From: Rubrivivax sp.
GTDB lineage: Bacteria; Pseudomonadota; Gammaproteobacteria; Burkholderiales; Burkholderiaceae_C
Assembly (NCBI GenBank): GCA_016789955.1
Contig: JAEUPB010000069.1
Location: forward strand, 1 to 55,395
Direction of reading: 5' to 3'
Length of the DNA stretch: 55,395 nt
In this document: positions 98 to 15,589 of the stretch, piece after piece
How the letters are laid out: each line of letters begins with the position of its first letter
Position numbering within the stretch: the first letter of the stretch is position 1
The notes under the pieces: generated by a model
What the model was told of the DNA's origin: nothing
Database searches by the model: none
What the model saw: the letters and a program-made list of their open reading frames with translations, nothing else
Program-made: the position numbers and the translations under genes

Positions 98-874
98 ATG
101 ACGACCCTCGCCGCCAACAAGCCCCGCGCCTACGAGCTGGGCCGCACCAACAGCCTGCCGGTCATCGCGTCCGACATCATCTACGAGGGCGCCGCCGTCG
201 GCCTCGTGGACGCTACCGGGCACTGCCGGCCGCTCACATCCGTGGATCGCTTCGTCGGCTTTGCCGAGCGCAAGGCCGACAACAGCGCGGGCGCCGCCGC
301 CGCCGTCAACGTGGATCTGATCCAGTCCGGCCAGGTGCAACTGTCCGTGAGCGGCGCAGTCATCACGGACGTGGGGCAGCCCGTCTACGCCAGCGACGAC
401 GACACCTTCACCTTCAACCCGGCCGACGGCCCCTACATCGGTGTCGTGAAGCGCTACGTCAGTGCCGGCGTCGCGGTCGTGGAGTTCGACGCGCAGTCGA
501 ACCGCGACCCCTGGCGGCACAAGACGGTCCGCGAGACGCTGACCGGCACCAAGACCTTCGACGCGCAGGACAGCGGGAAGCTCTTCTGCGTCACCGACGC
601 AGGCGACGCCGATGCGCTGACGCTGCCGGCCATCGCCGACGGCCTGGGCGGCATCACGATCCTGGCGGTCGGCGCGTTCGGCTCCACCGCGGTGACGATC
701 AGCCCGCAAGCCGCCGACATGATCCTCGGCCCCGACATCTCGGGCGCCGACAACAAGGACCTGATTTGCACCAAGGCCACCCAGCGCCGCGGCGACTTCG
801 TGACGCTGGATCTGGGCGACGCCGACGGCTACGTCGTCACCGAGATGCGCGGCACCTGGGCGCGCGAGGCCTGA
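98..874 (+). CDS. Phage capsid decoration protein (DUF2190-like) with an extra C-terminal beta domain
   Basis: Probable head decoration (cement) protein of 258 residues, directly upstream of the major capsid gene. Residues about 5-130 read like DUF2190: an early PVIASDIIYEGAAVGL stretch, then FVGFAERKADN, then repeated short beta-prone segments ending near VVEFDAQSN. Residues about 140-258 form a second beta-rich module (GKLFCVTDAGD, LTLPA, AVTISP, VTLDLGDADGY, RGTW) of the kind attached to phage fibres and decoration proteins. DUF2190 proteins are usually about half this length, so this is a two-domain version. The ATG at 98 is preceded by a GGAG-like Shine-Dalgarno. The family call is from pattern recognition. 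Confidence 0.7.
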   Translation: MTTLAANKPRAYELGRTNSLPVIASDIIYEGAAVGLVDATGHCRPLTSVDRFVGFAERKADNSAGAAAAVNVDLIQSGQVQLSVSGAVITDVGQPVYASDDDTFTFNPADGPYIGVVKRYVSAGVAVVEFDAQSNRDPWRHKTVRETLTGTKTFDAQDSGKLFCVTDAGDADALTLPAIADGLGGITILAVGAFGSTAVTISPQAADMILGPDISGADNKDLICTKATQRRGDFVTLDLGDADGYVVTEMRGTWAREA

Positions 875-914
875 TCCAGACCCCTGACGCCTTCACCCTC
901 CGAGGACCAACACC

Positions 915-1868
915 ATGGACCAGTCGATCCTGAGCAGCCGCGCCGTTCTCGGCATGTACTACGCGCGGCTCGAGAACCCGATGAATGCCGGCTGGATCGC
1001 CGGTGTCTCCAACCTGTTCGGCAGCGACCAGGCCTCGGAGCAATACCCGTTCCTCGGCCAGATGCCGCGCATGCGCGAATGGCTGGGTGGCCGCCAGGCG
1101 AAGGGCCTGCGCAGCAACTCGCTGACCATCGCGAACAAGCACTACGAAGCCACGGTCGAGATCGCTCTGCGCGACCTGCGCCGCGACAAGACGCCGCAGC
1201 TGCAGGCGCGGATGGCCGAGTTCGCCGACGAGGGGGATGCCCACTGGGGCACGCTGCTGTCGGCGCTGATCCTCGCAGGGCCTTCGACTGCCTGCTACGA
1301 CGGGCAGTACTTTTTCGACACCGACCACTCCGAGGGCGACTCGGGGACGCAGGACAACGACATTCAAGTCGACATCTCGGCGGTACCGGGCGCCGGCAGC
1401 GACAACACGCCGAGCTTCCCGAACGCCGCGCAGATGCAGGCGGCCATCGTCAAGGGCGTGGCGCAGATCCTGAGCTTCAAGGATGACCGCGGCCGCCCGA
1501 TGAACAGCAACGCGAAGCGCTTCCTCGTCACGGTGCCGGTCGGCCTCTACATGCCCGCCATCGCGTCGCTGTCGGCGATCAACCTCGCCGCGCTGCAGCA
1601 GAACATCAACCCGGTGCAGGCGGCCGGGCTGTCGATCGACGTGCAGATGATGCCCGAGCTGACGTGGACCGACAGCTTCGCCGTCTGGCGCACCGACAGC
1701 CCCATCAAGGGCCTGATCCGGCAGAACGAGACCAACCCGATGGTCAAGATGAAGGACGAGCGCAGCGAGTTCGCCTTCGACAACGACGCGATCCAGATCG
1801 GCATCGACGCATGGCGCGGCGCCGATTACGGCCTGTGGCAGCGCGCCTGCTACGTGACGATGGTCTGA
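915..1868 (+). CDS. Major capsid protein, Mu gpT family
   Basis: Major head subunit, 317 residues, close to the roughly 305 of Mu gpT. Recognisable family features are the N-terminal segment with WLGGRQAKGL near residues 56-65, the LTIANKHYEATVEI strand, the YFFDTDHSEGD segment in the middle, and the C-terminal AWRGADYGLWQRACY. It assembles the icosahedral shell. It is flanked by the decoration protein 40 bp upstream and connector genes downstream, the normal order for this head type. The start at 915 follows a GAGGA sequence near 900. Because the tail genes downstream are lambda-like rather than Mu-like, the head and tail modules have different ancestries. Confidence 0.9.
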   Translation: MDQSILSSRAVLGMYYARLENPMNAGWIAGVSNLFGSDQASEQYPFLGQMPRMREWLGGRQAKGLRSNSLTIANKHYEATVEIALRDLRRDKTPQLQARMAEFADEGDAHWGTLLSALILAGPSTACYDGQYFFDTDHSEGDSGTQDNDIQVDISAVPGAGSDNTPSFPNAAQMQAAIVKGVAQILSFKDDRGRPMNSNAKRFLVTVPVGLYMPAIASLSAINLAALQQNINPVQAAGLSIDVQMMPELTWTDSFAVWRTDSPIKGLIRQNETNPMVKMKDERSEFAFDNDAIQIGIDAWRGADYGLWQRACYVTMV

Positions 1869-1877
1869 GCGGCGGCC

Positions 1878-2150
1878 ATGCGCTACCTCGCACTCGCCCG
1901 CGTTCGCGTCATGCCTGGCGCGCGCGTGAGGCTGAACAAGGACCAGGCGTTCAACGCTCGTCACCTGGTCGAGCTGCCGGCGGCCGACGGGTTCTGCAAC
2001 GTGCTGCACCCGTTCGACTTCAAGGCGGGCGACCACTTCGAGCTCGACGGCGACCTGCCGAAGAACCTCGCAGAGCCTGCGCCTGAGCCAGCGGCCGAGG
2101 CGAAGGCCCCGAAGAAGCCCGCCGCCAAGGCCGGCCCGGTGGAGGCCTGA
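1878..2150 (+). CDS. Small phage structural protein, unknown function
   Basis: 90 residues, starting 9 bp after the capsid gene stop. The first 60 residues look like a small beta-rich domain (RYLALARVRVMPGARVRL, then HLVELPAADGF and FDFKAGDHFELDGDLP). The last 30 are an unstructured Ala/Pro/Lys tail (EPAAEAKAPKKPAAKAGPVEA). Position between capsid and connector genes suggests a head or neck component or assembly factor. I do not recognise a named family. Confidence 0.6.
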   Translation: MRYLALARVRVMPGARVRLNKDQAFNARHLVELPAADGFCNVLHPFDFKAGDHFELDGDLPKNLAEPAPEPAAEAKAPKKPAAKAGPVEA

Positions 2151-2152
2151 CC

Positions 2153-2431
2153 GTGCCCATGGTCGAGGACCTGTCCGTCTTCTTCGATGCCGCCGAGTTC
2201 GGCACCGAGGCGCAGATCGGCAGCGCCGACGTGCTGGGCCTGCTCGAGGTCGGCTATCACGAGGTGGCCGGCATGGGCACCACAGACCCGACCTTCATCT
2301 GCGCCGCGTCCGACGCCGACAGTGTCGTCGAGGGCACCACGCAGCTGACCGCGGGCTCGGACACCTACACCATCCGCTCGGTGCAGCCTGACGGCACCGG
2401 CCTCGCCGTGCTGCTGCTGGAGGCCGCGTGA
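2153..2431 (+). CDS. Head-tail joining protein, gpFII-like
   Basis: 92 residues, somewhat shorter than lambda gpFII. Key stretches are an N-terminal VEDLSVFFDAAEFG and a C-terminal DTYTIRSVQPDGTGLAVLLLE, the pattern of the phage attachment/Gifsy-2 FII-like family, where the late beta strands pack on the head connector. The start could be GTG 2153 or ATG 2159, three codons apart on the same reading frame. The stop overlaps the next start as GTGA. Gene order (capsid, FII-like, tail terminator, tail tube) supports the call. Confidence 0.6.
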   Translation: MPMVEDLSVFFDAAEFGTEAQIGSADVLGLLEVGYHEVAGMGTTDPTFICAASDADSVVEGTTQLTAGSDTYTIRSVQPDGTGLAVLLLEAA

Positions 2432-2901
2432 GCCACGCTCGCCGCACCATCCGCGAGGCCGTGGTAACGGCCCTGTCCGGTGCCGGCATCGTCGCCGCCG
2501 GCCGGGTGCACGACCACCCATACAACCCGCGGACGGCCTTCCCCTCCCTCGTCATCGAAGACGTGGGGGCGAACTTCAGCGACGGCAACGTCACCGAGGC
2601 GCAATCGGTCATGGCGCTCGGCACGCAGGTCGACATCGAACGCCGCTATCGCTTCGCCGTCATCGTCGAGGTGCAGCAGTCCACCCAGGCGGCGCGCGAG
2701 CGCGATGACCTCTGCGCCGAAGTTGAGGCCGCGCTCGACGCAGCCTTCAACGCCGACGACATCCCCGGCGTCAAGCACGTGCACCCGATCGCCTACCAGG
2801 CGGCCGACGACAACAGCGGCGAGAAGCCCATCCGCCGCGGCCTGCAGGTCTTCGAGGCCCTCTACATCACGCCGCTCGGCGCACCCTCCACCTTCCTCTA
2901 G
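2428..2901 (+). CDS. Tail terminator / tail completion protein (gpU- or gpZ-like)
   Basis: 157 residues beginning at GTG 2428, which overlaps the previous stop by four bases (GTGA). The N-terminal helix (RRTIREAVVTALSGAG), a central strand set (RRYRFAVIVEVQQ) followed by a helical Glu/Ala/Asp-rich segment (ERDDLCAEVEAALDAAF), and a C-terminal edge strand (VFEALYITPLG) are typical of small tail-terminator proteins that cap the tail tube. Its slot just before the tail tube gene matches lambda gpZ/gpU. The exact family is not certain. Confidence 0.6.
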   Translation: MSHARRTIREAVVTALSGAGIVAAGRVHDHPYNPRTAFPSLVIEDVGANFSDGNVTEAQSVMALGTQVDIERRYRFAVIVEVQQSTQAARERDDLCAEVEAALDAAFNADDIPGVKHVHPIAYQAADDNSGEKPIRRGLQVFEALYITPLGAPSTFL

Positions 2902-2912
2902 GAGCGACAGCC

Positions 2913-3554
2913 ATGTCCTACCTCGCACTCGTCGGCTCGGCCTTCGCCATCACCACGGGCCTGGCCAGCGCCAAGGCGATCAGCAACATCACGAACGCCG
3001 ATCCGGGCGTCGTGACGGCAACGGCCCACGGCTACAACAACACCGACGAGGTCCTGCTGGTCACCGACTGGGAGGATTTCAACTACTCGATCTTCCGCGT
3101 CACCAACAAGACGACGGACACCTTCGAGCTCGCCGGCTACGACACGTCGAACACGACGTTCTATCCGGCCGGCAGCGACACCGGCAACGCCTACAAGATC
3201 AGCGGCTGGCAGTCGCTGGGCCAGATCCTCGGCATCACGCCGCAGGGCGGCGATGCGCGCTACGAAGAGCTGGCCCCGTTCGACAAGCGCAACGGCGTTC
3301 GAATCGCGACCGGCTTCAACCCGTCGAGCTTCGAGATGGAGCTCGGCTTCGACGACAGCCGCACCGATCAGACGCTGCTGCTCGCCGCGTCGCGGGCGCA
3401 GGAAAAGCTCGGTTTCCGCTTCACGCTGTCCGGCCCGACCTACGCCTACGCCTACGGCACCGTGTCCTGCTCGGCGCTGCCGATCTTCGATCGCATCCTG
3501 CGGCGCCGCGTCTCGGTGTCCATGGAAGGCATGTTCACCTCGTTCACGAGCTGA
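2913..3554 (+). CDS. Major tail tube protein
   Basis: 213 residues, preceded by a good Shine-Dalgarno (GGAG at 2901-2904) before ATG 2913. The sequence is beta-rich with alternating polar strands, and has a loop region around residues 30-90 (TATAHGYNNTDEV, then TNKTTDTFELAGYDTS) that resembles an Ig-like or ubiquitin/lectin-like insertion. The C-terminal third (LGFRFTLSGPTYAYAYG) carries the tube-type strands. Position between the terminator and the chaperone/tape-measure genes is the expected place of the tail tube gene in siphoviruses. Confidence 0.65.
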   Translation: MSYLALVGSAFAITTGLASAKAISNITNADPGVVTATAHGYNNTDEVLLVTDWEDFNYSIFRVTNKTTDTFELAGYDTSNTTFYPAGSDTGNAYKISGWQSLGQILGITPQGGDARYEELAPFDKRNGVRIATGFNPSSFEMELGFDDSRTDQTLLLAASRAQEKLGFRFTLSGPTYAYAYGTVSCSALPIFDRILRRRVSVSMEGMFTSFTS

Positions 3555-3557
3555 TCG

Positions 3558-3902
3558 ATGGCCTCCTACAAGCTGATCGTCTCCGACGAGGTCGCGTTCG
3601 ATGTCCGCTGGACGCTGAACGACAAGGGGGTCGAGCGCGAGTTCGGCTTCAAAGCCGAGGCGCACCGGGTGAGGGAGCCCGGCGCGGAGAGCGGCACCGT
3701 CGGCGACTACCTGTCGAGGGCGGCGCGCGTGCGCATGGTGGAGTGGATCGGCGACCCGCCAATCGAGGACGAGGAAGGCCGAGCGCCGGCACCCGGGCCC
3801 GCTGCCCTGGCGGGCCTGTACGAGGCGATCGACAAGCTGCCCGGCCTCGTGCTCGCCCGCTATCTGGAAGCGATCGGACCGAAGGCCAAGCTGGGAAACT
3901 GA
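3558..3902 (+). CDS. Tail assembly chaperone, gpG-like (zero-frame product)
   Basis: 114 residues, starting 3 bp after the tube stop. It lies between the tail tube and the tape measure genes, the position of lambda gene G. The gene ends ...KLGN-TGA with the heptamer GGGAAAC (3893-3899) just before the stop, so a fraction of ribosomes should slip back one base and continue to 4333. In lambda, the short and frameshifted products coat the tape measure protein and recruit tube subunits. Function is assigned from position plus the slippery site; the protein sequence itself is not strongly diagnostic. Confidence 0.75.
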   Translation: MASYKLIVSDEVAFDVRWTLNDKGVEREFGFKAEAHRVREPGAESGTVGDYLSRAARVRMVEWIGDPPIEDEEGRAPAPGPAALAGLYEAIDKLPGLVLARYLEAIGPKAKLGN

Positions 3903-3930
3903 CCCGGCTGGCCGAGCTGCTGGCAGCCGG
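3893..3930 (+). promoter_or_regulatory. Programmed -1 frameshift signal: GGGAAAC plus downstream stem-loop
   Basis: The heptamer G-GGA-AAC at 3893-3899 is in the correct phase of the zero frame (codons GGA AAC TGA), so both tRNAs can re-pair on GGG and AAA. Lambda uses GGGAAAG for the same purpose. Four bases after it begins a perfect 7-bp stem, CCGGCTG (3904-3910) with CAGCCGG (3924-3930) around a 13-base loop. The zero-frame stop at 3900-3902 lies in the spacer. The spacer is a little shorter than the common 5-9 bases. Confidence 0.85.
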
Positions 3931-4333
3931 CGCGTTCGTCAACGGAGAGAAGACCGATGCGCAGCGCAGCCGACAGCCGCCGGAAGACCCGCCCGATCCT
4001 CGCGACCCGCGAGCGGTCAACCGCGCCGCGGGCCTCGCGCGACTCGCCGCAGTTGTTCCGCCTCCCGAGGCCGTCGAGGAGTTCCGCCTCTGGTCCGAGC
4101 ACCTCCCGGCGTTCCGGCTCTTTGAGGCGGTGCAGACCCAACTTCGATGGAGCGACAACCGGCCGACAGGCCTCGACTGGGTGGGCGTGCGCGCGCATCC
4201 GGCGTGCTGGGCGCTGCCTGAAGACCAGCGCGAGCGTGTGCTTGGCGACGTGGCTGTCATCGAGCACCCATGGCTGGCGGAACGTAACCGCCGCATCACG
4301 GAAGCCCTGAACCAGGCCCCCCGGCAGCGATGA
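3899..4333 (+). CDS. gpT-like extension of the tail chaperone, read by -1 frameshift (DUF1799-like)
   Basis: After slippage at 3893-3899 the -1 frame stays open for 144 codons to the TGA at 4331-4333, giving a 258-residue fusion with the 114-residue upstream part. The extension contains VEEFRLWSEHLPAFRLFEAV followed by QTQLRWSDNRPTGLDW, the pattern of DUF1799 phage proteins that sit just before tape measures. In this frame there is no ATG, GTG or TTG until GTG 4130, which is past the start of that conserved block, so independent initiation cannot make the domain. The stop overlaps the tape measure start (ATGA). Confidence 0.8.
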   Translation: MTRLAELLAAGAFVNGEKTDAQRSRQPPEDPPDPRDPRAVNRAAGLARLAAVVPPPEAVEEFRLWSEHLPAFRLFEAVQTQLRWSDNRPTGLDWVGVRAHPACWALPEDQRERVLGDVAVIEHPWLAERNRRITEALNQAPRQR

Positions 4334-7300
4334 CCAGCGACATCCGCATCAAGATCGGCCTCGACGGCGTGCCTCAAGTGCAGGCCGGCGCGGCGCAGGC
4401 TGCGCAGAGCCTCTCGCGCGTCGGCGATGCGGCCGACCTCACGTCGCGCCAGGCGCGGCTGCTCACGCGCAACTTCGGCGACGCGGTGCGGGCTCTCGGA
4501 GGCGGCGACGGTGTGCTCGGGGCCGCGGCGCAGCGCGTCGGGCAACTGGGTATCGCCTTCGGCGGCTTCGAGGGCATCGCGGCGCGCATCACGCCGGCGA
4601 CGGCAGCAATCGGCGGCCTGGCGGCTGCAGCAGGTGCGCTGGCGCTGGCCTACAAGCAAGGCAAGGACGAAAGCGACGCCTACGCGAAGGCGATCATCCT
4701 CTCGGGCAACGCAGCCGGCACCACCATCGGCCAGCTGAACCAACTCGCCAAGGCGCAGGCGGCAGTCGCCGGTTCGCAGGGCAAGGCCGCCGAGGTGTTG
4801 ACGCAACTCGCCGCAAGTGGGCAGGTCGCCAACGGAGAACTCGGCAAGGCTGCGGCCGCCGCGATCCGCTTCGAGCGCGCGGGCGGTGCCGCAGCAGACG
4901 AGACGGCAAAGAAGTTCATCGAGCTGGGCAAGGACCCGCTCAAGGCGCTGATCAAACTCAACGAGGCCGAGAACTTCCTCAGCCTGTCGGTCTACAAGAC
5001 GGTCAAGTCGCTGGAAGAGCAGGGCAAGCGCACCGAGGCTGCGACGGCCGCGCAGACCGCATACTTCGACACCATCGAGGGTCGTTCGGCGCAACTTGAG
5101 CCGCGGCTCGGACTGCTGAAGAAGGCTTGGCAGGGCCTCGGCGACGCCGCGGCGAAGGCGTGGAACTTCATGCTCAACATCGGCCGTGAGTCCACGGTCG
5201 ACGAGCAACTTGAACAGGCCGCGAACGCCGTCGCGGCAGCGCAGGCCAAGGCCGCGACTCGCCGCGGCTCGGCACCGCGCACGGGCCTCGCTGATGTCTA
5301 CGGGCCTCAGAACGCGCTCCAGAACTTCCAAGGGCTCAACGCCGGCGCCGGCTACGAAGCCCTGAGCGCCTACTATCAGAAGACGAACGCAGCGGGCGTC
5401 AAGGCCGCCATCGCCGCCGACCAGGCGCCGAAGGTCAAGGCCACCGCCGACGCGTATGCCGACCTCGTGCGCGAGCTCGGCAAGCTGCGCCAGAGCCAGG
5501 AGGAGGAGCTCGCCAGCGGCGGGAAGGTGAGCGCCGCGCGGGCGCTGCAGATCCGCCTCATCGACCAGCTGGCCGACAAGGCCGGCAAGCTCACCTTTGA
5601 GCAGCGCAAGTCGCTGGCCGCAGAGATCGCGCTCCGCGTGGCCGCGCAGGAGGCCATTGACCTGCAGGCCGCCGAGCTCAAGTCGGCGCAGGAGATCGCC
5701 GCGGCGCGCATCGACGCCCGCAAGAAAGAGCAGCAGGCGATCGACGAGTACGCGCAGAAGCAGCGCGAAGCCACCGCGCAGAGCCTCAAGAGCGTGCGCG
5801 ATAGGGCGCAGAGCCTCGAGGACGAGGAGCAGGCGGCCGCGCTCGCGGCGCGGTCGAACATCAGCCTCGCGGAGGCCATCGAGCAAGTCGCCATCGCGCG
5901 GCTGCAGGAGCGCCGCGGGCGCCTGAACGACAGCGCCGAGGGCCAGGCTGCAGCGGCCGACATCGACCGCGAGATCGCTGCACGGCAGCGGCTGGCGGCG
6001 GCCATCGCCGGCAAGTCGCAGCGCGAGAGCGCCGAGAAGTCCGCGCAGGAGCTGCAGCAGGCCTACGTGCGCGCATACGATGAGATCAGCAGCGGCCTGA
6101 CCGACGCAATCATCCAGGGCGGCAAGAGCGCGGCCGACTACATCAAGGGCCTGTTCCGCACGCTCGTCCTGCGTCCGCTGCTCGAGCCATTCGTGCGGCC
6201 TGTGGCGGGCGTGCTGGCCGGCTCCACCGGGGCGGCGAGTGCGTTTGCCGGAACGGGTGCGGGCGGCGGGTCTGCGCTCGATATCTTCAGCGCCGGGAAG
6301 ACGCTGTATGAAGGCTTCTCCAGCGGGTTCGCCAGCGCCGGATCGCAGGCCGGGTCGCTCTACGCACGCGTTGCCGAGTCGCAGCTCGGCTCGCGCATCG
6401 GGCTGTCGACGCTCACCGAGGACGCGGCCGGGAACATCTTCCTGCAGCAGACCGGCGGCAGCCAGGCCGCGGGCTCGGCATTTGGCACGGTGGCCAGCAC
6501 GGCAGCCGGCGCCGCGGTCGGCATCTACGGCGGCCGGGCCATCAGCGGCGGCTACGCGGCCTTCGGCGGCAGCGGCAACGGCACCGTGAACGCCGGCACG
6601 GCCATCGGCGCCGTGGTCGGCAGCATCGTCCCGGTGATCGGCACCGCCGTCGGCGCTGCTGTCGGCGGGCTGATCGGCGGCGTGGTGAATCGGCTGTTCG
6701 GACGCCGCGCGCCGGAGGTCGAGGGCCGCAGCATCACCGGCACCATCACCGGTTCCGACTTCAGCGGCTCGACGGTCGCCGACATCGTCGAACGAGGCGG
6801 CGTGTTCCGCTCCGACCGCCGATCGCAGCAGACCGAGGCCATCACCGGCGACCTCGACAAGGCGCTCGACGAGGGCGCGAAGTCGCTCTCGGACCTGGCC
6901 GCGAAGTACGGCGCCGCGCTGGGCCTGCCCGCCGAGCGGCTCGCCGGCGTCACGGCAGACATCAAGGTCGCCATCACCGACAGCGCCGACGACAACGCGA
7001 AGGCCATCGCCGATGCGCTGCAGCAGTACGCCGACGCGCTGCTCGGCACCTTCGCCGCCGACATCGAGCCGTTCCGCAAGAGCGGCGAGACGGTGGCGCA
7101 GACCATCGAGCGCGTGGGCGGTGCGCTGCTGACGATCAACGACAGCCTCGACATGCTGGGGCTGCAGGCGCTCTCCACGAGCGTAGAGGGCGGGCGCGCG
7201 GCGGTTGCGCTGGCGGAGCTGTTCGGCGACGCGGGCACGTTCGCGCAGGCCTCGGCCTCCTACTACGCGGCATTCTTCACCGAGGCCGAGCGCGCCGACC

Positions 7301-8955
7301 GTGCGACGCAGCAGATCACCGAGACGCTCGGCGAATTCGGCCTCAGCGTGCCAGCCTCGCGCGATGCCTTCCGCGATCTGGTCGAGGCGCAGGACCTCAC
7401 CACGCAGTCCGGGCGCGAGGCCTTCGCTGCGCTGCTCGGCGTCTCCAGTGCGTTCGACGCGCTGCAGACCGCGGCCGGTGACAGCGCGCAGGCGCTGGCC
7501 GAGGTGGTCGCGCAGCGCAAGCAACTGGAGGCGCAACTCTTCGAGCTGCAGGGCAACACCGCCGCGCTACGCGAGCGCGAGCGGGCTGCGCTGGACGAAA
7601 GCAACCGAGCGCTGTTCGACCAGATCAAGGCGCTCGAGGACCAGGCCGACGCAGCCAAGCTCGCCGCCGATGCTGCCGAGGAGGCCGCCCGCGCGGCCGA
7701 GGACCTGGCGAACCGGCAGCGCTCGATCGCCGGCGGCGTCGACAGCGTCATCGGCGACTTCCTGCAGGGCCCGCAGCTCGCGCAGTACTTCGCCACGCGC
7801 ATCCAGGAGACGCTCGCCGAGGGCGGCATCGAGTCCTCGATCCCAGGCATCCTGGGCAGCACCCGCGACGACATCCTGCAGCTGTGGAACGCGGTCGGCG
7901 TGGACGGCCGCGAGGCGATCCTCGCCGCGTATGGCGCATGGCTGGATCTCGACGAGGTGCTGCGCGGCACCGCTCGCTCGGTGGCCACGTTCCGCAGCGG
8001 CACGCTCGCCGACCGAATCGAGGAGGCCCGCCTCGGCTCGCTGAGTCCGGCCGACCGCATCGCTCGGCTGCGCAGCACCGAGGCGACGCTCTTCGGGCAG
8101 CTGGGCACGTCCGACGATCCGGTGGCCGTCGCCGAGCGGCTGACCGGCGTCATCACGCAGCGCCTGGGCGAGGAGGCCCGTCTGCGCGACGACCTGCACC
8201 GCTCGACGATCGACAGCCTGGAAGAGCAGCTGGATGCAGCGCGCAGCGTGCGCGACGCAGTCGCCGCGATCCCGCAGTTCACGTCGGAGCTGCGCCTCGG
8301 CGCATCGTCGCCGCTCAGTGCGCAGCAGCAGGTCGCCGAGGCCGAGCGCCTGTTCAACTCGACGATCGTGCGTGCCCGGGGTGGCGACCGCACCGCGGTC
8401 GACTCGCTGCAGCGCAATGCGCAGCTCTTCATCGACGAGGCGCTGGCTGCCTTCGGCTCCGGGCCGCAGGGCGCGCGCATCTTCGGTGACGTGACCGCGG
8501 CGCTCGAGGAGTTCGCCGCGCAGATCGGCCCGACGATCGACCCGCAAATCGCCGCGCTGGAGGCGCAGGTATCGGCGGCCGAATCGACCGCCGACAACAC
8601 CGGCGAGGCGTTGACGCTGCTGCAGTCCATCGACGCGGCGCTCGGCGGGCGCTACACCAGCAGCAGCGCCTCCGTGCTGGCTCCTCCGCAGCCTCAGCCG
8701 ATCGACATCACACCCACCGATCTGCCGGTGGTCGACGCCATCACCAACGGCGCCGCGGCGTCTGCGCAGGCGAGCGCCGAGCTTCGCGACATGGTCGAGC
8801 AGCTGCGCAGCATCGCCGCGAACACCCAGATCACCACCTCGCTGCCGCCGATCAACCAAGCGGGCTTCACGGCCCTGATCGAGCGCGTGCGGGCCCTCGA
8901 AACGATCCAGACCCAGCTACTGACCGCCGTGCGGCCGTCGCTGGTCACTACCTGA
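4330..8955 (+). CDS. Tail tape measure protein, lambda gpH family (TMP_2-like)
   Basis: 1541 residues, the longest gene of the prophage. It sets tail length and is ejected with the DNA. Residues about 1-330 match the prophage tail length tape measure domain (small Ala-rich helices, LAKAQAAVAGSQGKAAEVLTQL). Residues about 450-580 and 1050-1135 are charged coiled coils. Residues about 620-790 are Gly/Ala-rich and hydrophobic, ending in VGAAVGGLIGGVVNRLFG, the likely membrane-inserting segment. At about 1.5 angstrom per residue, a rule of thumb for such proteins, the tail would be near 230 nm. The ATG overlaps the chaperone extension stop (ATGA). Confidence 0.9.
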   Translation: MTSDIRIKIGLDGVPQVQAGAAQAAQSLSRVGDAADLTSRQARLLTRNFGDAVRALGGGDGVLGAAAQRVGQLGIAFGGFEGIAARITPATAAIGGLAAAAGALALAYKQGKDESDAYAKAIILSGNAAGTTIGQLNQLAKAQAAVAGSQGKAAEVLTQLAASGQVANGELGKAAAAAIRFERAGGAAADETAKKFIELGKDPLKALIKLNEAENFLSLSVYKTVKSLEEQGKRTEAATAAQTAYFDTIEGRSAQLEPRLGLLKKAWQGLGDAAAKAWNFMLNIGRESTVDEQLEQAANAVAAAQAKAATRRGSAPRTGLADVYGPQNALQNFQGLNAGAGYEALSAYYQKTNAAGVKAAIAADQAPKVKATADAYADLVRELGKLRQSQEEELASGGKVSAARALQIRLIDQLADKAGKLTFEQRKSLAAEIALRVAAQEAIDLQAAELKSAQEIAAARIDARKKEQQAIDEYAQKQREATAQSLKSVRDRAQSLEDEEQAAALAARSNISLAEAIEQVAIARLQERRGRLNDSAEGQAAAADIDREIAARQRLAAAIAGKSQRESAEKSAQELQQAYVRAYDEISSGLTDAIIQGGKSAADYIKGLFRTLVLRPLLEPFVRPVAGVLAGSTGAASAFAGTGAGGGSALDIFSAGKTLYEGFSSGFASAGSQAGSLYARVAESQLGSRIGLSTLTEDAAGNIFLQQTGGSQAAGSAFGTVASTAAGAAVGIYGGRAISGGYAAFGGSGNGTVNAGTAIGAVVGSIVPVIGTAVGAAVGGLIGGVVNRLFGRRAPEVEGRSITGTITGSDFSGSTVADIVERGGVFRSDRRSQQTEAITGDLDKALDEGAKSLSDLAAKYGAALGLPAERLAGVTADIKVAITDSADDNAKAIADALQQYADALLGTFAADIEPFRKSGETVAQTIERVGGALLTINDSLDMLGLQALSTSVEGGRAAVALAELFGDAGTFAQASASYYAAFFTEAERADRATQQITETLGEFGLSVPASRDAFRDLVEAQDLTTQSGREAFAALLGVSSAFDALQTAAGDSAQALAEVVAQRKQLEAQLFELQGNTAALRERERAALDESNRALFDQIKALEDQADAAKLAADAAEEAARAAEDLANRQRSIAGGVDSVIGDFLQGPQLAQYFATRIQETLAEGGIESSIPGILGSTRDDILQLWNAVGVDGREAILAAYGAWLDLDEVLRGTARSVATFRSGTLADRIEEARLGSLSPADRIARLRSTEATLFGQLGTSDDPVAVAERLTGVITQRLGEEARLRDDLHRSTIDSLEEQLDAARSVRDAVAAIPQFTSELRLGASSPLSAQQQVAEAERLFNSTIVRARGGDRTAVDSLQRNAQLFIDEALAAFGSGPQGARIFGDVTAALEEFAAQIGPTIDPQIAALEAQVSAAESTADNTGEALTLLQSIDAALGGRYTSSSASVLAPPQPQPIDITPTDLPVVDAITNGAAASAQASAELRDMVEQLRSIAANTQITTSLPPINQAGFTALIERVRALETIQTQLLTAVRPSLVTT

Positions 8956-8972
8956 CATCAGGAGCACACATC

Positions 8973-9443
8973 ATGATCGGTCGCGTCTACGCCGTAACTG
9001 GCTCCGCGGTGGTCATCACGGCCGCGCAAGACCTCGTCGAGAATTCGCCTGCCGACGATAAGCCGGTCGAGCTGATCGGCTGGCACATCGGACAGAACAG
9101 CGACGCGGGAGACGCGCAGGAGGAACTGCTGCAGATCACCGTCATCCGCGGGCACACCAGCAGCGGCAGCGGCGGCAGCAGCGTCACTCCGGCGCCGCTC
9201 AACCCGAACGACGCAGCGGCAGGATTCGCCGCCGAGATCAACAACACGACAATCGCATCGGCCGGCACGACCGCGACGCTGTTCGCGTCCGCGTGGAACG
9301 TCCGCGCCGGCTCCGACGTGTGGTTGCCGGAGGACGTGAGGCCGCGCGCCAGCCAGGCGAACACGACGCTCGTCGTGCGCATGTCCGCACCGGCTGACTC
9401 GATCACCGTCAACTTCGTATTCTGGTTCCGTGAGCTGAACTGA
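8973..9443 (+). CDS. Phage virion protein, unknown (post-tape-measure)
   Basis: 156 residues, ATG 8973 preceded by CAGGAGC. The N-terminus (MIGRVYAVTGSAVVIT) and the C-terminal strand (DSITVNFVFWFRELN) suggest an all-beta fold. A flexible Gly/Ser segment (TSSGSGGSSVTP) lies near residues 65-80. The middle (NTTIASAGTTATLFASAWNVRAG) resembles small virion beta-barrels seen in other siphoviruses. Probably a distal tail or tail-surface protein. Not assigned to a named family. Its stop overlaps the next start as TGATG. Confidence 0.55.
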   Translation: MIGRVYAVTGSAVVITAAQDLVENSPADDKPVELIGWHIGQNSDAGDAQEELLQITVIRGHTSSGSGGSSVTPAPLNPNDAAAGFAAEINNTTIASAGTTATLFASAWNVRAGSDVWLPEDVRPRASQANTTLVVRMSAPADSITVNFVFWFRELN

Positions 9444-11620
9444 TGCGCCTGCGCCTCGCGTCCATCCGCAGGCTGCCGCCACCGCGGCCGCCGGCCAATC
9501 TGCGCCGGAAGCGATGGCTGCCGCCGACGCTGACGGTCGCGGAGATCGACGCCGGGCCGGGCTCCGAGTGGATGGTGGTCTACCGCATCGAGACCACCGA
9601 CGGCAACGGCGACCCGGTCACGCTGTGGCCGGCGACGCGCACGATGATCACAAGCGAGAGCGACACGCCGGCCGACCAGACCTTTGAGCCGGTGCTCGCG
9701 AAGGGCGCGGCGGGCTCCTACCGCATGCAGCTGTTCTCAGGCACGGCGCGCGAAGCCGGCGTCGTCGCTGCCAGCGGCGGGCAGTTCGCGCTGATGAACG
9801 CCGACGGCGAGTATGACGAATGGGTGCAGTACCTGACCGACGGCAGCCGGGTCACGTGCTACCTCGGCAAACACGGCGATCCGTTCCCGGCAGCCTGGCG
9901 AAAGGTCTTCGTCAGCTACATCGACGGCTTTCCGATCATCGACCGCGAGCGCATGACGCTGCGGCTGCGCGGGCGCGAGCGACTGTTCGAGCGCGACTGC
10001 CAGCCGCTCGGCTACACCGGCAGCACCGGCAGCGTGGGCAGCATCACGCTGGAGGAAACAGGCATCGCAGGCAACGCGCGCCGGCCTCTCGTGATGGGCA
10101 CGCCGCCGAGCTGGAAGCCGGTCCTCATCAACGCGACCGAGAAAATCTGGGACATCTGCGGCATGGCGGTCTTCGGAACGCCGTCGCTCTATGACGGCGG
10201 CGTCGCGCTGCAGGTCTCGGTGTCGGCCTTCGGCAGCGATCAGCCCGGCACGTACCAGATCCTCGAGAACGGTGCCGGCGTCTTCGCGCACCTGACCTCG
10301 CAGATCCGATACGAGCTGCGCGCCGAGGGCACCGGGCGCTATGCCACGCCGACCGCGTCAGAACGCGCGTGGACCGTCTGCGACGTGGCGATGCAGGCCG
10401 GTGTCGCGGCCGATCCGACATCGCTGCCGACGGGCAGCGAGAACTTCTCGGCCGGGAATCGCGTCGTGCAGACCGAGAAGGTGCGCGACGTGCTGGCCGA
10501 CGTGGCGCGGTACGAGTGCGCGGCGATCGGCCTCGACCGCCTTGACCGATTCTTCGCGCGGCGCCTCGTGCCGAGCTTCGACGGGTCCGCGGTGCACACC
10601 TTCCGCGACGCGGGCAGCTACAGCGACGGCAACATCGACGGGCTTCGCTTCTCGCGGCTGCGCGGTGCCGAGCGCCGAGTGCATCGAGTGACCGTGCATG
10701 CCGGTCGGTCGCAACGCTCGGCGCTGGCCGGCGTGGTCGACGACGCCGTGCGCGACCGACTCTCGCGCGACCCGTATCAGGTCAACTTCACCGCGGAGTG
10801 CCTCTACACCTCGCTGTTCGGGCAGCGCCGCATCCTGGACGTTGACCCGACCGCCGAGGCCGTCGAGGTGCAGATCGTCGGGCACCAGTTCGCCAGCGAG
10901 GCGGACATGATTGCCTACGCGCTGCGCTACCTGCGGCTGTACGGCAGCCGGTCGGTCGCGGCCGAGTTCGAGACCGAGCTCGATCACGACACGCTGGCGA
11001 TCGAGGTCTGCGACATCGTCGACATCGAGTCGGCGCGCTTCGGCGGCGACCGCTCGGCCGTCGTCATCGGCTATGACGTGGACCTCAACACGCGCCGCGT
11101 GCGCTTCGAGGTGTGGAGCCATGACGAGCTTGGCACCGTGCTCGGCACTGCGGCGCCGACGGAGACCGAGATCGTCATCACGCAGGAGGACACCGCCGAG
11201 GGCGCTGGAGGCGGTGGCGCAGGGTCCGGTGTCGCCGGGCGCGGCGATGCGGCGCTGCAGCTGCTGCATGAGTTCGTCCTGCTCGGCGACAAGACGACGG
11301 CGCTCGCGGTCGGCGAGTCGACGGTCGACTTCCTGTTCCCGTTCGCCGGCGAGCTCGTCGCGGTCTACGGTGGCGCCACGACCGCGCAGACCTCCGGCTC
11401 GATCCTGACGCTCGATATGCGGATCAACACCGTGTCGGTGTTCTCCACGCTCATCACGGTCGACAACAACGAGCGCAGCAGCCACACAGCCGCAACGCCT
11501 CCCGTGCTGAGTGCGCCGAGCTTCGAGCAGGGAGACCGCGCGACCTTCCACATCACGCAGGTCGGCACCGGCGGGAAGGGCGCATGGGTCGACTTCGTCT
11601 ACGTGCCGAGGTCGGTGTGA
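9443..11620 (+). CDS. Large phage tail-tip/structural protein
   Basis: 725 residues, translationally coupled to the upstream gene by TGATG. The main body (about 25-580) carries many short beta strands and ends in a stretch typical of tail-hub proteins that alternate strands and loops (SAVVIGYDVDLNTRRVRFEVW). A Gly-rich linker (EGAGGGGAGSGVAGRGD, about residues 585-602) joins a C-terminal domain of about 115 residues with the pattern FAGELVAVYGGATTAQ, a polar middle and FEQGDRATFHITQVG, a small beta-sandwich that recurs at the ends of phage virion proteins. Probably part of the tail tip or baseplate; no lambda-type J, K, L or I gene is visible. Confidence 0.6.
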   Translation: MRLRLASIRRLPPPRPPANLRRKRWLPPTLTVAEIDAGPGSEWMVVYRIETTDGNGDPVTLWPATRTMITSESDTPADQTFEPVLAKGAAGSYRMQLFSGTAREAGVVAASGGQFALMNADGEYDEWVQYLTDGSRVTCYLGKHGDPFPAAWRKVFVSYIDGFPIIDRERMTLRLRGRERLFERDCQPLGYTGSTGSVGSITLEETGIAGNARRPLVMGTPPSWKPVLINATEKIWDICGMAVFGTPSLYDGGVALQVSVSAFGSDQPGTYQILENGAGVFAHLTSQIRYELRAEGTGRYATPTASERAWTVCDVAMQAGVAADPTSLPTGSENFSAGNRVVQTEKVRDVLADVARYECAAIGLDRLDRFFARRLVPSFDGSAVHTFRDAGSYSDGNIDGLRFSRLRGAERRVHRVTVHAGRSQRSALAGVVDDAVRDRLSRDPYQVNFTAECLYTSLFGQRRILDVDPTAEAVEVQIVGHQFASEADMIAYALRYLRLYGSRSVAAEFETELDHDTLAIEVCDIVDIESARFGGDRSAVVIGYDVDLNTRRVRFEVWSHDELGTVLGTAAPTETEIVITQEDTAEGAGGGGAGSGVAGRGDAALQLLHEFVLLGDKTTALAVGESTVDFLFPFAGELVAVYGGATTAQTSGSILTLDMRINTVSVFSTLITVDNNERSSHTAATPPVLSAPSFEQGDRATFHITQVGTGGKGAWVDFVYVPRSV

Positions 11621-12852
11621 GCGTCATCAACTTCATCGCGGCGGCTGGTGGCGGTGGTGGTGGCACTCCGGGCGCCGGCGACTACGATCTGATCGACACC
11701 ATCAGCGCGACCGCGAAGCCGTTCATCGACGCCGGGCCGATCGTCGTGAGCCGCGACGGGCTGACGGTCTTCGCTGTCGGCCAGGATGGCAGCGCGCTTG
11801 GGGTGTGGGTCTGGCGCTGGAACGGCAGCAGCTTTCCCAACGTGCAGATCATCGCGCTGGGCACCCCGGGCGACTTCACCGCAGCCACGCAGATGCCGCA
11901 GATGTCGCTGGCGTGCAGCGAAGACGGCACGCGTGTCGTGCTCGGCATGCGCAGCGCGGTAAGCAACGACGGCCGCGTCTACGTCTTCGACGAGACCAGC
12001 ACCGACACCTGGACGCAGTACCAGCGCATCGCGCCGCCGAGCGCCGGCGCCGCGGGCCTCTTCGGTGCTGATGTCGACATCACGAACGACGGCAGCCGCA
12101 TCGTGGTCGGCGAGGCTGCTTACTTCGACGGCGTGCAGGGCATCGGCCGCGGGCACATCTACCTCGACGGTGGGTCGAGCTTCGCGCTCGAGCAGACCCT
12201 TGCCGACACATCCGAGAACGGCTTCGGCGGTCTCGGGTTCGGCGTGGCCATCTCCGGCACCGGCGCCGTCGTCGCGCTCGGCAATCCGTCCGTCTTCTCG
12301 CCCAGCTTCGCCGGCCTCGGGGCGATCGAGAGCTACACGCGATCGGGCACGACGTGGACCTTCGAGGCCCGCAGCTACCCGACCGAGGACGACCCGCTCT
12401 TCGGCTTTGCCCGCGCCGGCGCGCTGATGGGCATGGACGAGGACGGCACGCACATCCTGTCGGCCGACTATGCCGGTGTCACGCTCGACAGCGTGCACTA
12501 CAAGCGGGTCGGCGGCGCGCTGGCGTTTCAGTCCATCGTCTACGGCCTCGGCATCTCCGGCACGCCGTCGCAGATCTACGCCGGTGGCATGGCGATGGCC
12601 GGCGATGCGTCGAGCGTTGTGCTGGGCGACTACCTCTACAGCACGTCGCGCGGCCGTCTGCGCCGCTGGACCGGCCCGACCTCGTGGGCGTCCGACGTGG
12701 ACATCGACAGCGCCTCACCGACGAACAACCAACAGCACAGCCGGGGCGTCAGCACCACGCGCGACGGCGGTGCGGTGGTGTGGAGCGAGTGCCCCACCGC
12801 GGCGAACGCGTCAACATCTCTGGGCGATCGCGCTTACATGAGGGTCTTCTGA
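11617..12852 (+). CDS. Phage beta-propeller (FG-GAP-like) protein
   Basis: 411 residues if started at GTG 11617, which overlaps the previous stop (GTGA); an in-frame ATG at 11584 lies inside the upstream gene and is less likely. After a poly-Gly stretch (AAAGGGGGGTPGAG), the chain repeats a blade motif: S-x-DGT-x-VVxG, then GxVYVF, then W-x-x-x-Q-x-I, at least five times (for example SEDGTRVVLG, TNDGSRIVVG, DEDGTHILSA). This is the layout of integrin-type FG-GAP propellers. Position in the tail module suggests receptor or surface-glycan contact, which is an inference. Confidence 0.65.
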   Translation: MSVINFIAAAGGGGGGTPGAGDYDLIDTISATAKPFIDAGPIVVSRDGLTVFAVGQDGSALGVWVWRWNGSSFPNVQIIALGTPGDFTAATQMPQMSLACSEDGTRVVLGMRSAVSNDGRVYVFDETSTDTWTQYQRIAPPSAGAAGLFGADVDITNDGSRIVVGEAAYFDGVQGIGRGHIYLDGGSSFALEQTLADTSENGFGGLGFGVAISGTGAVVALGNPSVFSPSFAGLGAIESYTRSGTTWTFEARSYPTEDDPLFGFARAGALMGMDEDGTHILSADYAGVTLDSVHYKRVGGALAFQSIVYGLGISGTPSQIYAGGMAMAGDASSVVLGDYLYSTSRGRLRRWTGPTSWASDVDIDSASPTNNQQHSRGVSTTRDGGAVVWSECPTAANASTSLGDRAYMRVF

Positions 12853-13652
12853 TGGGCAGCATCGTCGCGATGGGCTACCGCAACCTGATCGACGCTGCCA
12901 CGCTGAGCGGCAGCGGATGGCACGCCTCCTACCCGCTGACGAACCTCCAGGACCGCCGCCTCTGGACGTACGCACGCACCAGCGGCACGAGCGCCGACAT
13001 CATCATCGACCACGGGTCGGCCAAGCCGATGGGCGTCTTCGCGCTCTTCGGCACGAACATCGGATCGGCGGACACGATGACCGTCACGGTCGGCACCACA
13101 TCTACCGGGACCGATGTCTACGCCGCCGGGTCGGCCGTCGCGTGCTGGCCCTTCGCGCCGCTCGACGGCGTCTATGACGGCGGGCACTTCGGCTGCTGGG
13201 TCGTGCTGCCGGCCGATGTCACCGCGCGGTACGCGCGCATTCAGGTCTCCGGCAGTGCGGTGATCCGCATCGCGCGCCCCTTCGTGGGGCCCGTGTGGCG
13301 GCCGACCTATTCGCCGTCCTACAGCGGCTTCGCCGAGGGCTGGGGCGAGCCGAACAGCACGGTCATGACCGGCGACAGCGGCGCCGATACGGTCTGGCAG
13401 CGGCGCGAGCAGCGCGAGGTCGCCTATGACCTGTCGGTGCTGACGCCGGAGTCGGCGAGCGAGCTCGACGAGATCGTGCGCACGCACTCGATCACCGAGG
13501 AGGTAGCGCACGTGCGCCATGTGCACGACCGCGAGGTGCAACAGCAGTACGGCTTCCTCGGCCGGCTGCGTCGGCTATCCGCCCTTGAGCATCCGTTCTA
13601 TGGCCCCCGCTCCGCGTCGGTGGCCATCACTGGCCGCGGCGGCGCGGCGTAG
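12852..13652 (+). CDS. Phage tail structural protein, unknown
   Basis: 266 residues. ATG 12852 overlaps the propeller stop (TGATG), fixing the start; a longer open frame upstream is antisense-like noise inside the propeller gene. The central part reads like a galactose-binding or discoidin-type jelly roll (IIIDHGSAKPMGVFALFGTN, then ARYARIQVSGSAVIRIARPF), followed by a helical C-terminal third (LTPESASELDEIVRTHS). Probably a tail-tip or fibre-associated protein. Function unknown. Confidence 0.55.
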   Translation: MGSIVAMGYRNLIDAATLSGSGWHASYPLTNLQDRRLWTYARTSGTSADIIIDHGSAKPMGVFALFGTNIGSADTMTVTVGTTSTGTDVYAAGSAVACWPFAPLDGVYDGGHFGCWVVLPADVTARYARIQVSGSAVIRIARPFVGPVWRPTYSPSYSGFAEGWGEPNSTVMTGDSGADTVWQRREQREVAYDLSVLTPESASELDEIVRTHSITEEVAHVRHVHDREVQQQYGFLGRLRRLSALEHPFYGPRSASVAITGRGGAA

Positions 13653-13677
13653 CGGCAACCCGAAAGGAGTCCAGACC

Positions 13678-14121
13678 ATGACCATGATTCGCTTGATCCT
13701 GCTGGCACTGCTCTGGCCGGCGCTCTCCGGCGCCCAGGTGCTCGAGCTGACTCCCGACACGGCTTGCGGCGCCCCCGGCGTCGGAACCGTGCGCGTGATC
13801 CGCGACGGCGCCGAGCGCTGGGTGGCAGAGGCCCGCCCCGGCACGCCGGGGCAGCGCGTCGGGCGCGATGGGCGCTGGCACACCGGCTGCCAGATGCCGC
13901 CGGCTTGTGCGACGCGGCGCACGTACCAGTGGGCCGATCAGCAGACCGGCGCGCTGTGCACGCCATCCACGCCCGAGCTGCGCGCTGTGCCCGAGGTCGG
14001 CCGCATCCGCCAGGTGCACGCCATCGGCCGCGGCGGGGCGATCGTCGGCCGCGCGACCTACGAGTGCACGGCCGAAGGCTGGCGGCTGGTGCCGGCCGAT
14101 ACCTACTGCCGGGGCAGGTGA
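13678..14121 (+). CDS. Small secreted Cys-containing phage protein
   Basis: 147 residues. A clear Shine-Dalgarno (AAAGGAG near 13662-13668) precedes ATG 13678. Residues 1-19 are a signal peptide (MTMIRLILLALLWPALSGAQ). The mature part has six cysteines (in DTACGAP, TGCQMPPACA, GALCTP, YECTA and TYCRG), suggesting disulphides in the periplasm. The gene sits between the tail and lysis genes. It could be a lysis accessory, superinfection-exclusion or envelope protein. No family recognised. Confidence 0.6.
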   Translation: MTMIRLILLALLWPALSGAQVLELTPDTACGAPGVGTVRVIRDGAERWVAEARPGTPGQRVGRDGRWHTGCQMPPACATRRTYQWADQQTGALCTPSTPELRAVPEVGRIRQVHAIGRGGAIVGRATYECTAEGWRLVPADTYCRGR

Positions 14122-14124
14122 GTG

Positions 14125-14577
14125 ATGGCTGAGCTGCCCATTCCGAGCGACGAGCAGCTCAGCAGCTGGGCGCGCTTCATGCGCGCGCTGTCTCCGCAGG
14201 GCGTCATGCTCCTGCTGTGCCTGGGCGTCGGCCTGGTGGCCGTCTATGGCCTGTACGAGACCCGCACCGAGTGGGTGCCGCTGCTGTGGCGCAGCCAGCC
14301 GATGCAGATCGCCACCATGCTGGCGTTGGCGGCGCTGGCCGTGGGCGCTGCGATGCACTCGCTGCACCGGCGCCTGTCGGTGAAGCTCGAACGCACCGAG
14401 CACATGCTGCGCGACCAGAGCGAGCGCGAGATCGCACTGCTGCGCACCCAGGTGCAGGCATGCGACGCCGAGCGCGACAAGCTGCGCGTCGAGATCGCCT
14501 CGGTGAGGGCGAGCAGCGACGCGAAGATCGAGATGCTGCAGCGCGAGGTCGACTCGCTTCGGCAGCGGGCAGGGTAA
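14125..14577 (+). CDS. Two-TM coiled-coil membrane protein, putative holin or spanin-like
   Basis: 150 residues from ATG 14125 (GTG 14122 is one codon upstream). Two hydrophobic helices, residues about 27-45 (VMLLLCLGVGLVAVYGLY) and 58-78 (IATMLALAALAVGAAMHSL), are followed by a charged coiled coil from about 80 to the end (REIALLRTQVQA, VDSLRQRAG). It lies three genes before the endolysin. A two-TM protein here is commonly a holin, while the long cytoplasmic or periplasmic coil is reminiscent of i-spanins (Rz). The sequence cannot distinguish the two. Confidence 0.55.
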   Translation: MAELPIPSDEQLSSWARFMRALSPQGVMLLLCLGVGLVAVYGLYETRTEWVPLLWRSQPMQIATMLALAALAVGAAMHSLHRRLSVKLERTEHMLRDQSEREIALLRTQVQACDAERDKLRVEIASVRASSDAKIEMLQREVDSLRQRAG

Positions 14578-14580
14578 GCC

Positions 14581-15069
14581 GTGCGGCACGCGCTCGGAGT
14601 CGTCGAAGGCATCAGCGCGACGCTGGTGGGCATCGGCGTGATGCTCGTGGTCGGCCTGGTGCTCGTGGTGCGCGCGCCGGCGATCGAGGCTCGGCTGCTG
14701 CCGGTGTGGTCGCAGATGTCGATCGAGTGGGAGCCTGCAGATGGCGACGACCTGCTCGGCGCGCTGTACGGCTACAAGGACCGCGGCGAGTGCCGCCTCG
14801 TGGAGATCGTGGCCGAGGTGGCGTCGCGCGGCTACTGGCTGCCGGCCGAGATCACGATCGCCGGCCGCCCGCCCGGCAAGACCACTCGCGCGACGGGATG
14901 GCAGTCGCTCGGGCTGTGGCGCTTCCACCTGCGCGAGCAGGACCGGCGCACGCCGCAGGTGCTAGAGCGGCTGCGCCTGTCCGCGCACTACCAGTGTCAC
15001 GACTGGTGGCTGACGCCGGCGCGTCTCGGCGAGTGGCCGACGCCGACGCTGCTCGTATCCGAGGGGTGA
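14581..15069 (+). CDS. Single-TM phage protein in the lysis cassette, unknown
   Basis: 162 residues from GTG 14581, 3 bp after the upstream stop. Residues about 10-35 form one strong membrane helix (ATLVGIGVMLVVGLVLVV), followed by a soluble domain with two cysteines (RGECRLVE and HYQCHDWW) and several Trp. The C-terminal domain would face the periplasm if the N-terminus stays inside. It lies immediately before the endolysin. No family recognised; a lysis-timing or envelope role is possible from position only. Confidence 0.55.
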   Translation: MRHALGVVEGISATLVGIGVMLVVGLVLVVRAPAIEARLLPVWSQMSIEWEPADGDDLLGALYGYKDRGECRLVEIVAEVASRGYWLPAEITIAGRPPGKTTRATGWQSLGLWRFHLREQDRRTPQVLERLRLSAHYQCHDWWLTPARLGEWPTPTLLVSEG

Positions 15070-15070
15070 C

Positions 15071-15589
15071 ATGGACTTCGACACCGCTTTCGAGCGCCTG
15101 ATCGGCCACGAGGGCGGCTTCCAGGCCAGCCCGAGGGACAAGGGCAATTGGACCGGCGGGCAGATCGGATCCGGGCGCCTCGTCGGCACGAAGTACGGCA
15201 TCTCGGCCGCGAGCTACCCGGGCGAGGACATCGAGCATCTGACGCCGGAGCGTGCGCGCGAGCTCTACCGCCGCGACTTCTGGGGGCCTGCCGGATGCGA
15301 CATCGTGCCCGACGTGCTGCGCTTCCCGCTGTTCAGCGTGGCCGTGCACACCTCCGCGCCGCGTCGGCCGGTGACGGCAATCAAGATGCTGCAGCGCGCG
15401 GCCGGCGTGAAGGACGACGGCGTGATCGGCCGCGACACGATCATGGCGGTGCAGGCGATGGACCGCTGGCGGCTGCGTGGCCGCTTCTGCGGGCACTGGC
15501 TCGACTACCTCAACGATGGCGGCGCTTGGGTGGACTTCGGGCGCGGCTGGGCTCAACGGATCGCCGAGATCCTGCAGGAGAAAGCATGA
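15071..15589 (+). CDS. Endolysin, glycoside hydrolase family 108 (N-acetylmuramidase)
   Basis: 172 residues, the usual size for GH108 enzymes. The N-terminal FERLIGHEGGF carries the expected catalytic glutamate at residue 14. GTKYGISAASYP follows near residues 42-53, and the C-terminal half (AIKMLQRAAGVKDDGVIG) is the peptidoglycan-binding type 3 domain that normally completes this architecture. It cleaves the glycan backbone of peptidoglycan for phage release. No signal peptide is visible, so export would need a holin. ATG 15071 is one base after the upstream stop. Confidence 0.9.
   Translation: MDFDTAFERLIGHEGGFQASPRDKGNWTGGQIGSGRLVGTKYGISAASYPGEDIEHLTPERARELYRRDFWGPAGCDIVPDVLRFPLFSVAVHTSAPRRPVTAIKMLQRAAGVKDDGVIGRDTIMAVQAMDRWRLRGRFCGHWLDYLNDGGAWVDFGRGWAQRIAEILQEKA

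Follow-up and report, generated by a model that had tools for sequence, protein, structure and literature searches.

Main finding and layout of the tail region

A tail gene in a prophage of Rubrivivax sp. is very probably decoded, judging from its sequence, by −1 programmed ribosomal frameshifting of the phage lambda G/GT kind, which would yield a 114-residue chaperone and a 258-residue fusion from one start. The gene lies in a window of 55,395 nucleotides (the whole stretch of DNA that was analysed), which has a GC content of 71% and is a single contig of a draft genome that comprises 116 contigs and is 79.59% complete. Two overlapping frames, the second at −1, stand between the major tail protein and tape measure genes:

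2913..3554, + strand: major tail protein gene, the upstream neighbour (PF08813, 65.5 bits; phrog_584)
3558..3902, + strand: zero-frame ORF of 114 aa, a putative tail assembly chaperone by position (relatives L002, L003 and L004)
3882..3937, + strand: 56-nt block over the frame junction, the same in the window, L002 and L004 by alignment
3893..3899, + strand: slippery heptamer G GGA AAC, read directly, in phase and conserved in relatives
3900..3902, + strand: zero-frame stop TGA abutting the heptamer, read directly
3904..3910, + strand: 5' arm of the candidate stem, CCGGCTG
3924..3930, + strand: 3' arm of the candidate stem, CAGCCGG
3899..4333, + strand: −1 frame extension of 144 codons plus stop (4331-4333), kept in L002 (96%) and L004 (73%)
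4076..4270, + strand: DUF1799 domain in the −1 frame (PF08809, 37.8 bits; phrog_680)
4330..8955, + strand: tape measure protein gene, its start overlapping the −1 frame stop (PF06791, 139.1 bits; phrog_24)

The stretch at 98-15589 resembles a prophage piece truncated at the contig start, with head, tail and endolysin genes, while the genes scanned at 17341-55388 (FMN-dependent dehydrogenase, LysR regulator, ABC transporter, enolase-like, DctM) look bacterial. No tRNA genes were found within the window.

A sequence-only reading of this DNA had proposed the frameshift, and the elements it named are all present: the heptamer in zero-frame phase with the stop directly 3' of it, a −1 frame that is stop-free for 144 codons from 3899 and holds no ATG, GTG or TTG before GTG 4130, and an exact 7-bp stem with a spacer of 4 and a loop of 13. 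The two product lengths that it judged likely are those predicted from the frames. These elements differ in weight. An open −1 frame is by itself weak evidence, since this frame stays open for 617 codons from 2480 in a window so rich in GC, and the same holds for the stem, because a perfect stem of at least 7 bp (spacer 3-9, loop 3-20) begins after 2.6% of + strand positions in the window. GGGAAAC occurs twice on the + strand (at 42 and 3893) and was not found on the − strand of the window. As a control for the heptamer, open frames running from stop to stop over 100 codons or more were collected on either strand, from the window and from most of the fetched loci. An in-phase XXXYYYZ stood directly before the stop in 61 of these 1,415 frames, and 56 of the 61 were GGGAAAC or AAAAAAC at tail chaperone junctions; outside such junctions the count was 5 of 1,359. 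A heptamer abutting the stop thus weighs more than the open frame or the stem. The decisive evidence is the DUF1799 match together with conservation of the site in relatives, and both support the earlier proposal of programmed −1 frameshifting.

Conservation of the junction in close relatives

A protein search of viral contigs returned three loci for the 114-residue part (L002, L003 and L004); the single locus for the −1 part is on the contig carrying L002. Identities over the 114-residue and −1 parts are 84% and 96% in L002 and 72% and 73% in L004, while L003, which ends early, equals L004 where compared. The sequence GGGAAACTGACC is kept in the same frames in all three, and window positions 3882-3937 (56 nt) are without any difference in L002 and L004. 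Synonymous changes are rarer at the junction than elsewhere in L002 (0/22 versus 30/201, Fisher p 0.035), L004 (2/22 versus 50/154, p 0.017) and L021 (3/19 versus 44/93, p 0.009), three comparisons that all share the window sequence and are therefore not independent. Reading and comparing the sequences shows the two frames, the heptamer in phase, the absence of a start and the conservation of the junction.

The exact 17-mer AAGCTGGGAAACTGACC was found in 15 viral-contig stretches, 13 of which carry a chaperone-sized ORF ending KLGN followed by a −1 extension beginning LT. Of these 13, three are contigs that the protein search had already returned, and there are near-identical pairs among the others; the set was selected by DNA and was left out of the counts of motif use. 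The remaining two stretches (L016 and L025) lack that layout and were dismissed as chance occurrences. Five zero-frame proteins from this set were scanned, and Phage_TAC_4 was recognised in L015, L017 and L028 but not in L021 and L027.

Kinship of the two protein parts

DUF1799 (PF08809) covers residues 60-124 of the 144-residue −1 part, at 37.8 bits against a curated cut-off of 26. The −1 frame holds GTG codons at 4130, 4181, 4187, 4238 and 4250; the earliest start codon, GTG 4130, falls within DUF1799, and none lies near the beginning of the frame.

In Pfam and PHROG, searched at E up to 1, nothing matched the 114-residue part, Phage_TAC_4 (PF08748) included, and profile comparison with six TAC_4-type members gave a probability of 3.6%, over the last 35 columns only. 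Structure models of the chaperone and DUF1799 parts reached mean pLDDT values of 78.2 and 86.4. At E 0.001 or better the former had no match in PDB and BFVD and the latter none in PDB; one tail assembly chaperone in BFVD was hit by the chaperone model at E 0.73. In the phage collection, neither the DNA of 3558-4333 by similarity nor the 114-residue part by tblastn found a match. Among 61 relatives the 114-residue part matches only the window's own genome, and among 398 phylum genomes it matches itself and one weak, unrelated-looking locus (L029), where no overlapping frame pair was found. That this part is without a recognised family counts against the frameshift reading.

A survey of DUF1799 loci

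PF08809 was searched in 274 class genomes (7 with a match) and 398 phylum genomes (30 with a match), two draws that partly overlap. Together with eight further fetched regions, the matches gave 43 loci including the window; among the 39 match rows, one, a second stretch at G525:C26, is adjacent to another and was not treated as separate. Four of the loci (L057 and L063-L065) fall under Pfam's cut-off, and there are near-duplicates such as L054/L055 and L060/L061. Where an overlap holds several heptamers, the one nearest to the stop was used.

An in-phase heptamer lies within the overlap in 42 of the 43 loci, and in 31 of the 43 it abuts the stop, which may be TAA or TAG as well as TGA. It is one codon away in three loci (L007, L013 and L058) and 9, 18, 27, 54 or 105 nt away in eight (L056, L048, L009, L031 and L057/L063/L064/L065), where chance heptamers are harder to exclude. 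The heptamer is GGGAAAC or AAAAAAC in 41 of the 42 loci and AAAAAAG in one (L048). At L010, no chaperone ORF overlaps the DUF1799 match (531-911) and an ATG is present at 573; its DUF1799 is possibly separately started or out of context.

In 17 named phage loci, hand-picked from tblastn lists, the heptamer abuts the stop in 14 (the counts of 43 and 17 include the repeats L063 and L079, both of which the pooled control counter excludes). Two of the 17, the Drexlerviridae phages Rogue1 (L071 1190-1204) and NJS2 (L073 1190-1204), have no XXXYYYZ heptamer at the junction. Junction and stop position are kept there, with an A_AAG or A_AAA tetramer, one more codon and then TAA, and a single-tRNA slip may be used. 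In Enterobacter phage N5822 (L080 950-1210) small differences in length seem to disrupt both the chaperone and the DUF1799 frame, perhaps through sequencing error or decay.

Candidate stimulators around the heptamer

Downstream stimulatory structures are frequent in G/GT-type frameshifts without being essential. To compare hairpins, 68 sites were reduced to 62 unique ones, clustered at 75% identity to 50, and, after removal of the motif-found sites and that of Burkholderia phage KL1, to 44 distinct sites. The 45 nt starting 3 nt past the heptamer have a mean z of −1.28 versus shuffles, with 16 of the 44 below −2, as compared with a mean z of −0.16 and 24 of 396 below −2 in control stretches of the same loci (Mann-Whitney p 9e-6), a pooled control that retains the offset +300, itself raised (mean z −0.68, 24% below −2).

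The window's own stem is plausible, not outstanding: over 29 nt it folds at −16.7 kcal/mol (z −1.57), over 45 nt z is −0.64, and over 46 nt, where a different fold wins, z is −0.13; in a 101-nt stretch the stem gives way to upstream pairing. Among the closest relatives there is no covariation, because the stem is identical in them. Farther out, the third stem pair is G-C in L017 and A-T in L024, so that pairing is kept, while it is broken in L018 and L020; L021 keeps the stem only partly or shifted. An upstream Shine-Dalgarno-like stimulator was also considered and rejected: site energies are −3.80 versus −2.21 in control stretches, which reflects composition only, since the mean z against same-letter shuffles is −0.11 (51 sites). 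The window's own site is weak (−2.6).

Proposed decoding and alternative readings

By the −1 frameshift that we favour, most ribosomes would translate 3558-3902 and end at TGA, giving the 114-residue chaperone, while a minority would move one base back at GGGAAAC, the GGA and AAC tRNAs re-pairing with GGG and AAA. Reading would then resume at CTG 3899 and produce the 258-residue fusion with its C-terminal DUF1799 domain, the hairpin perhaps assisting slippage on G GGA AAC. We infer the slippage itself, its low rate and the help of the hairpin. By analogy with lambda, the short form would coat the tape measure protein and the fusion would bring in the tail tube protein. A point against the frameshift reading is that G_GGA_AAC had low efficiency in E. 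coli reporters (PMC4066793).

The same fusion could arise by a −1 'shifty stop', in which translocation precedes the slip: UGA would then occupy the A site while the Gly and Asn tRNAs sit in E and P, and competition from release factor would tune the ratio of products. We regard this sub-variant as rather unlikely. The abutment of heptamer and stop in 31 of the 43 protein-found loci would fit a release-factor-tuned shift, two other sets having mean heptamer-stop distances of 26 and 36 nt (PMC10885494), and bacterial frameshifting reportedly became RF2-sensitive when a stop directly followed the HIV slippery site (PMC4373837). However, the added stop lowered frameshifting in that same work (PMC4373837), 11 of the 42 heptamer-bearing loci have the stop 3-105 nt downstream, and TAA and TAG occur beside TGA; moreover, abutment is explicable by trimming of the short product or by the constant Leu codon. 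Extended to the DUF1799-type tail genes of these phages, the idea would be that the heptamer is usually joined to the stop as (GGG or AAA)AAAC-stop and that slippage occurs while the stop occupies the A site. The ratio of chaperone to fusion would then be adjusted by the supply of release factor and the context of the stop, and C would be retained at Z because any other base before TGA would create an ATG, GTG or TTG start for the second frame. We put this forward tentatively, as an improbable generalisation.

Separate translation of the second frame, whether through re-initiation or by use of an internal start codon (GTG 4130, for example), is highly improbable. Five GTG codons do exist in the −1 frame (4130-4250), and some phage records annotate the second frame as its own CDS, yet a start at GTG 4130 would cut DUF1799 (4076-4270) and would account neither for the conserved LTRLAEL with which the extension begins nor for the constraint on synonymous change near the junction. 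Entries of this kind, with an internal start, are found in records L068, L067, L073, L081 and L083, under names such as 'FAD-dependent oxidoreductase' (Acidovorax phage Aval) and 'tail length tape measure protein'. Least credible of all, to the point of being negligible, is that assembly error or gene decay split one ORF in two: the window is one contig of an incomplete draft, but the frame relation recurs in independent contigs and in 42 of the 43 protein-found loci.

Relation to known frameshift systems

The lambda G/GT heptamer is GGGAAAG, as against GGGAAAC in the window. Pfam and PHROG searches found no sequence kinship between the two systems; the likeness lies in gene position, −1 direction and a short plus a fused product (PMC5009743). 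The molar ratio reported for lambda is 30:1; the tape measure protein is bound there by gpG and by the G part of gpGT, and the tail tube subunit by the T part (PMC5009743). In the available sections of two sources, G_GGA_AAG is listed only as shift-prone (PMC4066793, PMC5009743).

The heptamer of the window recurs in Burkholderia phage KL1 gp18/gp19, for which a −1 frameshift was predicted at a GGGAAAC adjoining TGA in the tail chaperone position (PMC3483164). The KL1 record JF939047 joins both frames and we confirmed the site in its DNA; the frameshift there is a prediction only and, unlike the window, KL1 has an extra gene between the pair and the tape measure gene (PMC3483164). Escherichia phage Tls (tfmA/tfmS) and Stenotrophomonas phage Silvanus (tape measure chaperone) have records with two products, the longer joined from two pieces. 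Both share with the window a heptamer abutting the stop and a DUF1799-type extension (tblastn), but their heptamer is AAAAAAC, and the Tls zero-frame protein is a Phage_TAC_4 member whereas that of the window is without a recognised family. The g-t site of halovirus HCTV-1 has G_GGA_AAC in the same kind of gene (PMC5009743), although its host is archaeal. With KL1, HCTV-1, Tls and Silvanus as precedents, the window site is a fresh example of a known frameshift type that many phages use. In the literature searched, which holds few subscription papers, we found no published description of such a heptamer-stop rule for genes with DUF1799.

On the favoured −1 frameshift, the annotation of the tail operon is settled as one chaperone gene with two products, rather than two genes or an error. 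In the loci examined, DUF1799 partners as a rule carry a heptamer ending in C, a kind that performs poorly in E. coli reporters. The many loci in which heptamer and stop are fused offer natural material on the question of competition between release factors and −1 slippage in bacteria and, if the shifty-stop reading were true, they would represent a widespread natural bacterial −1 'shifty stop'.
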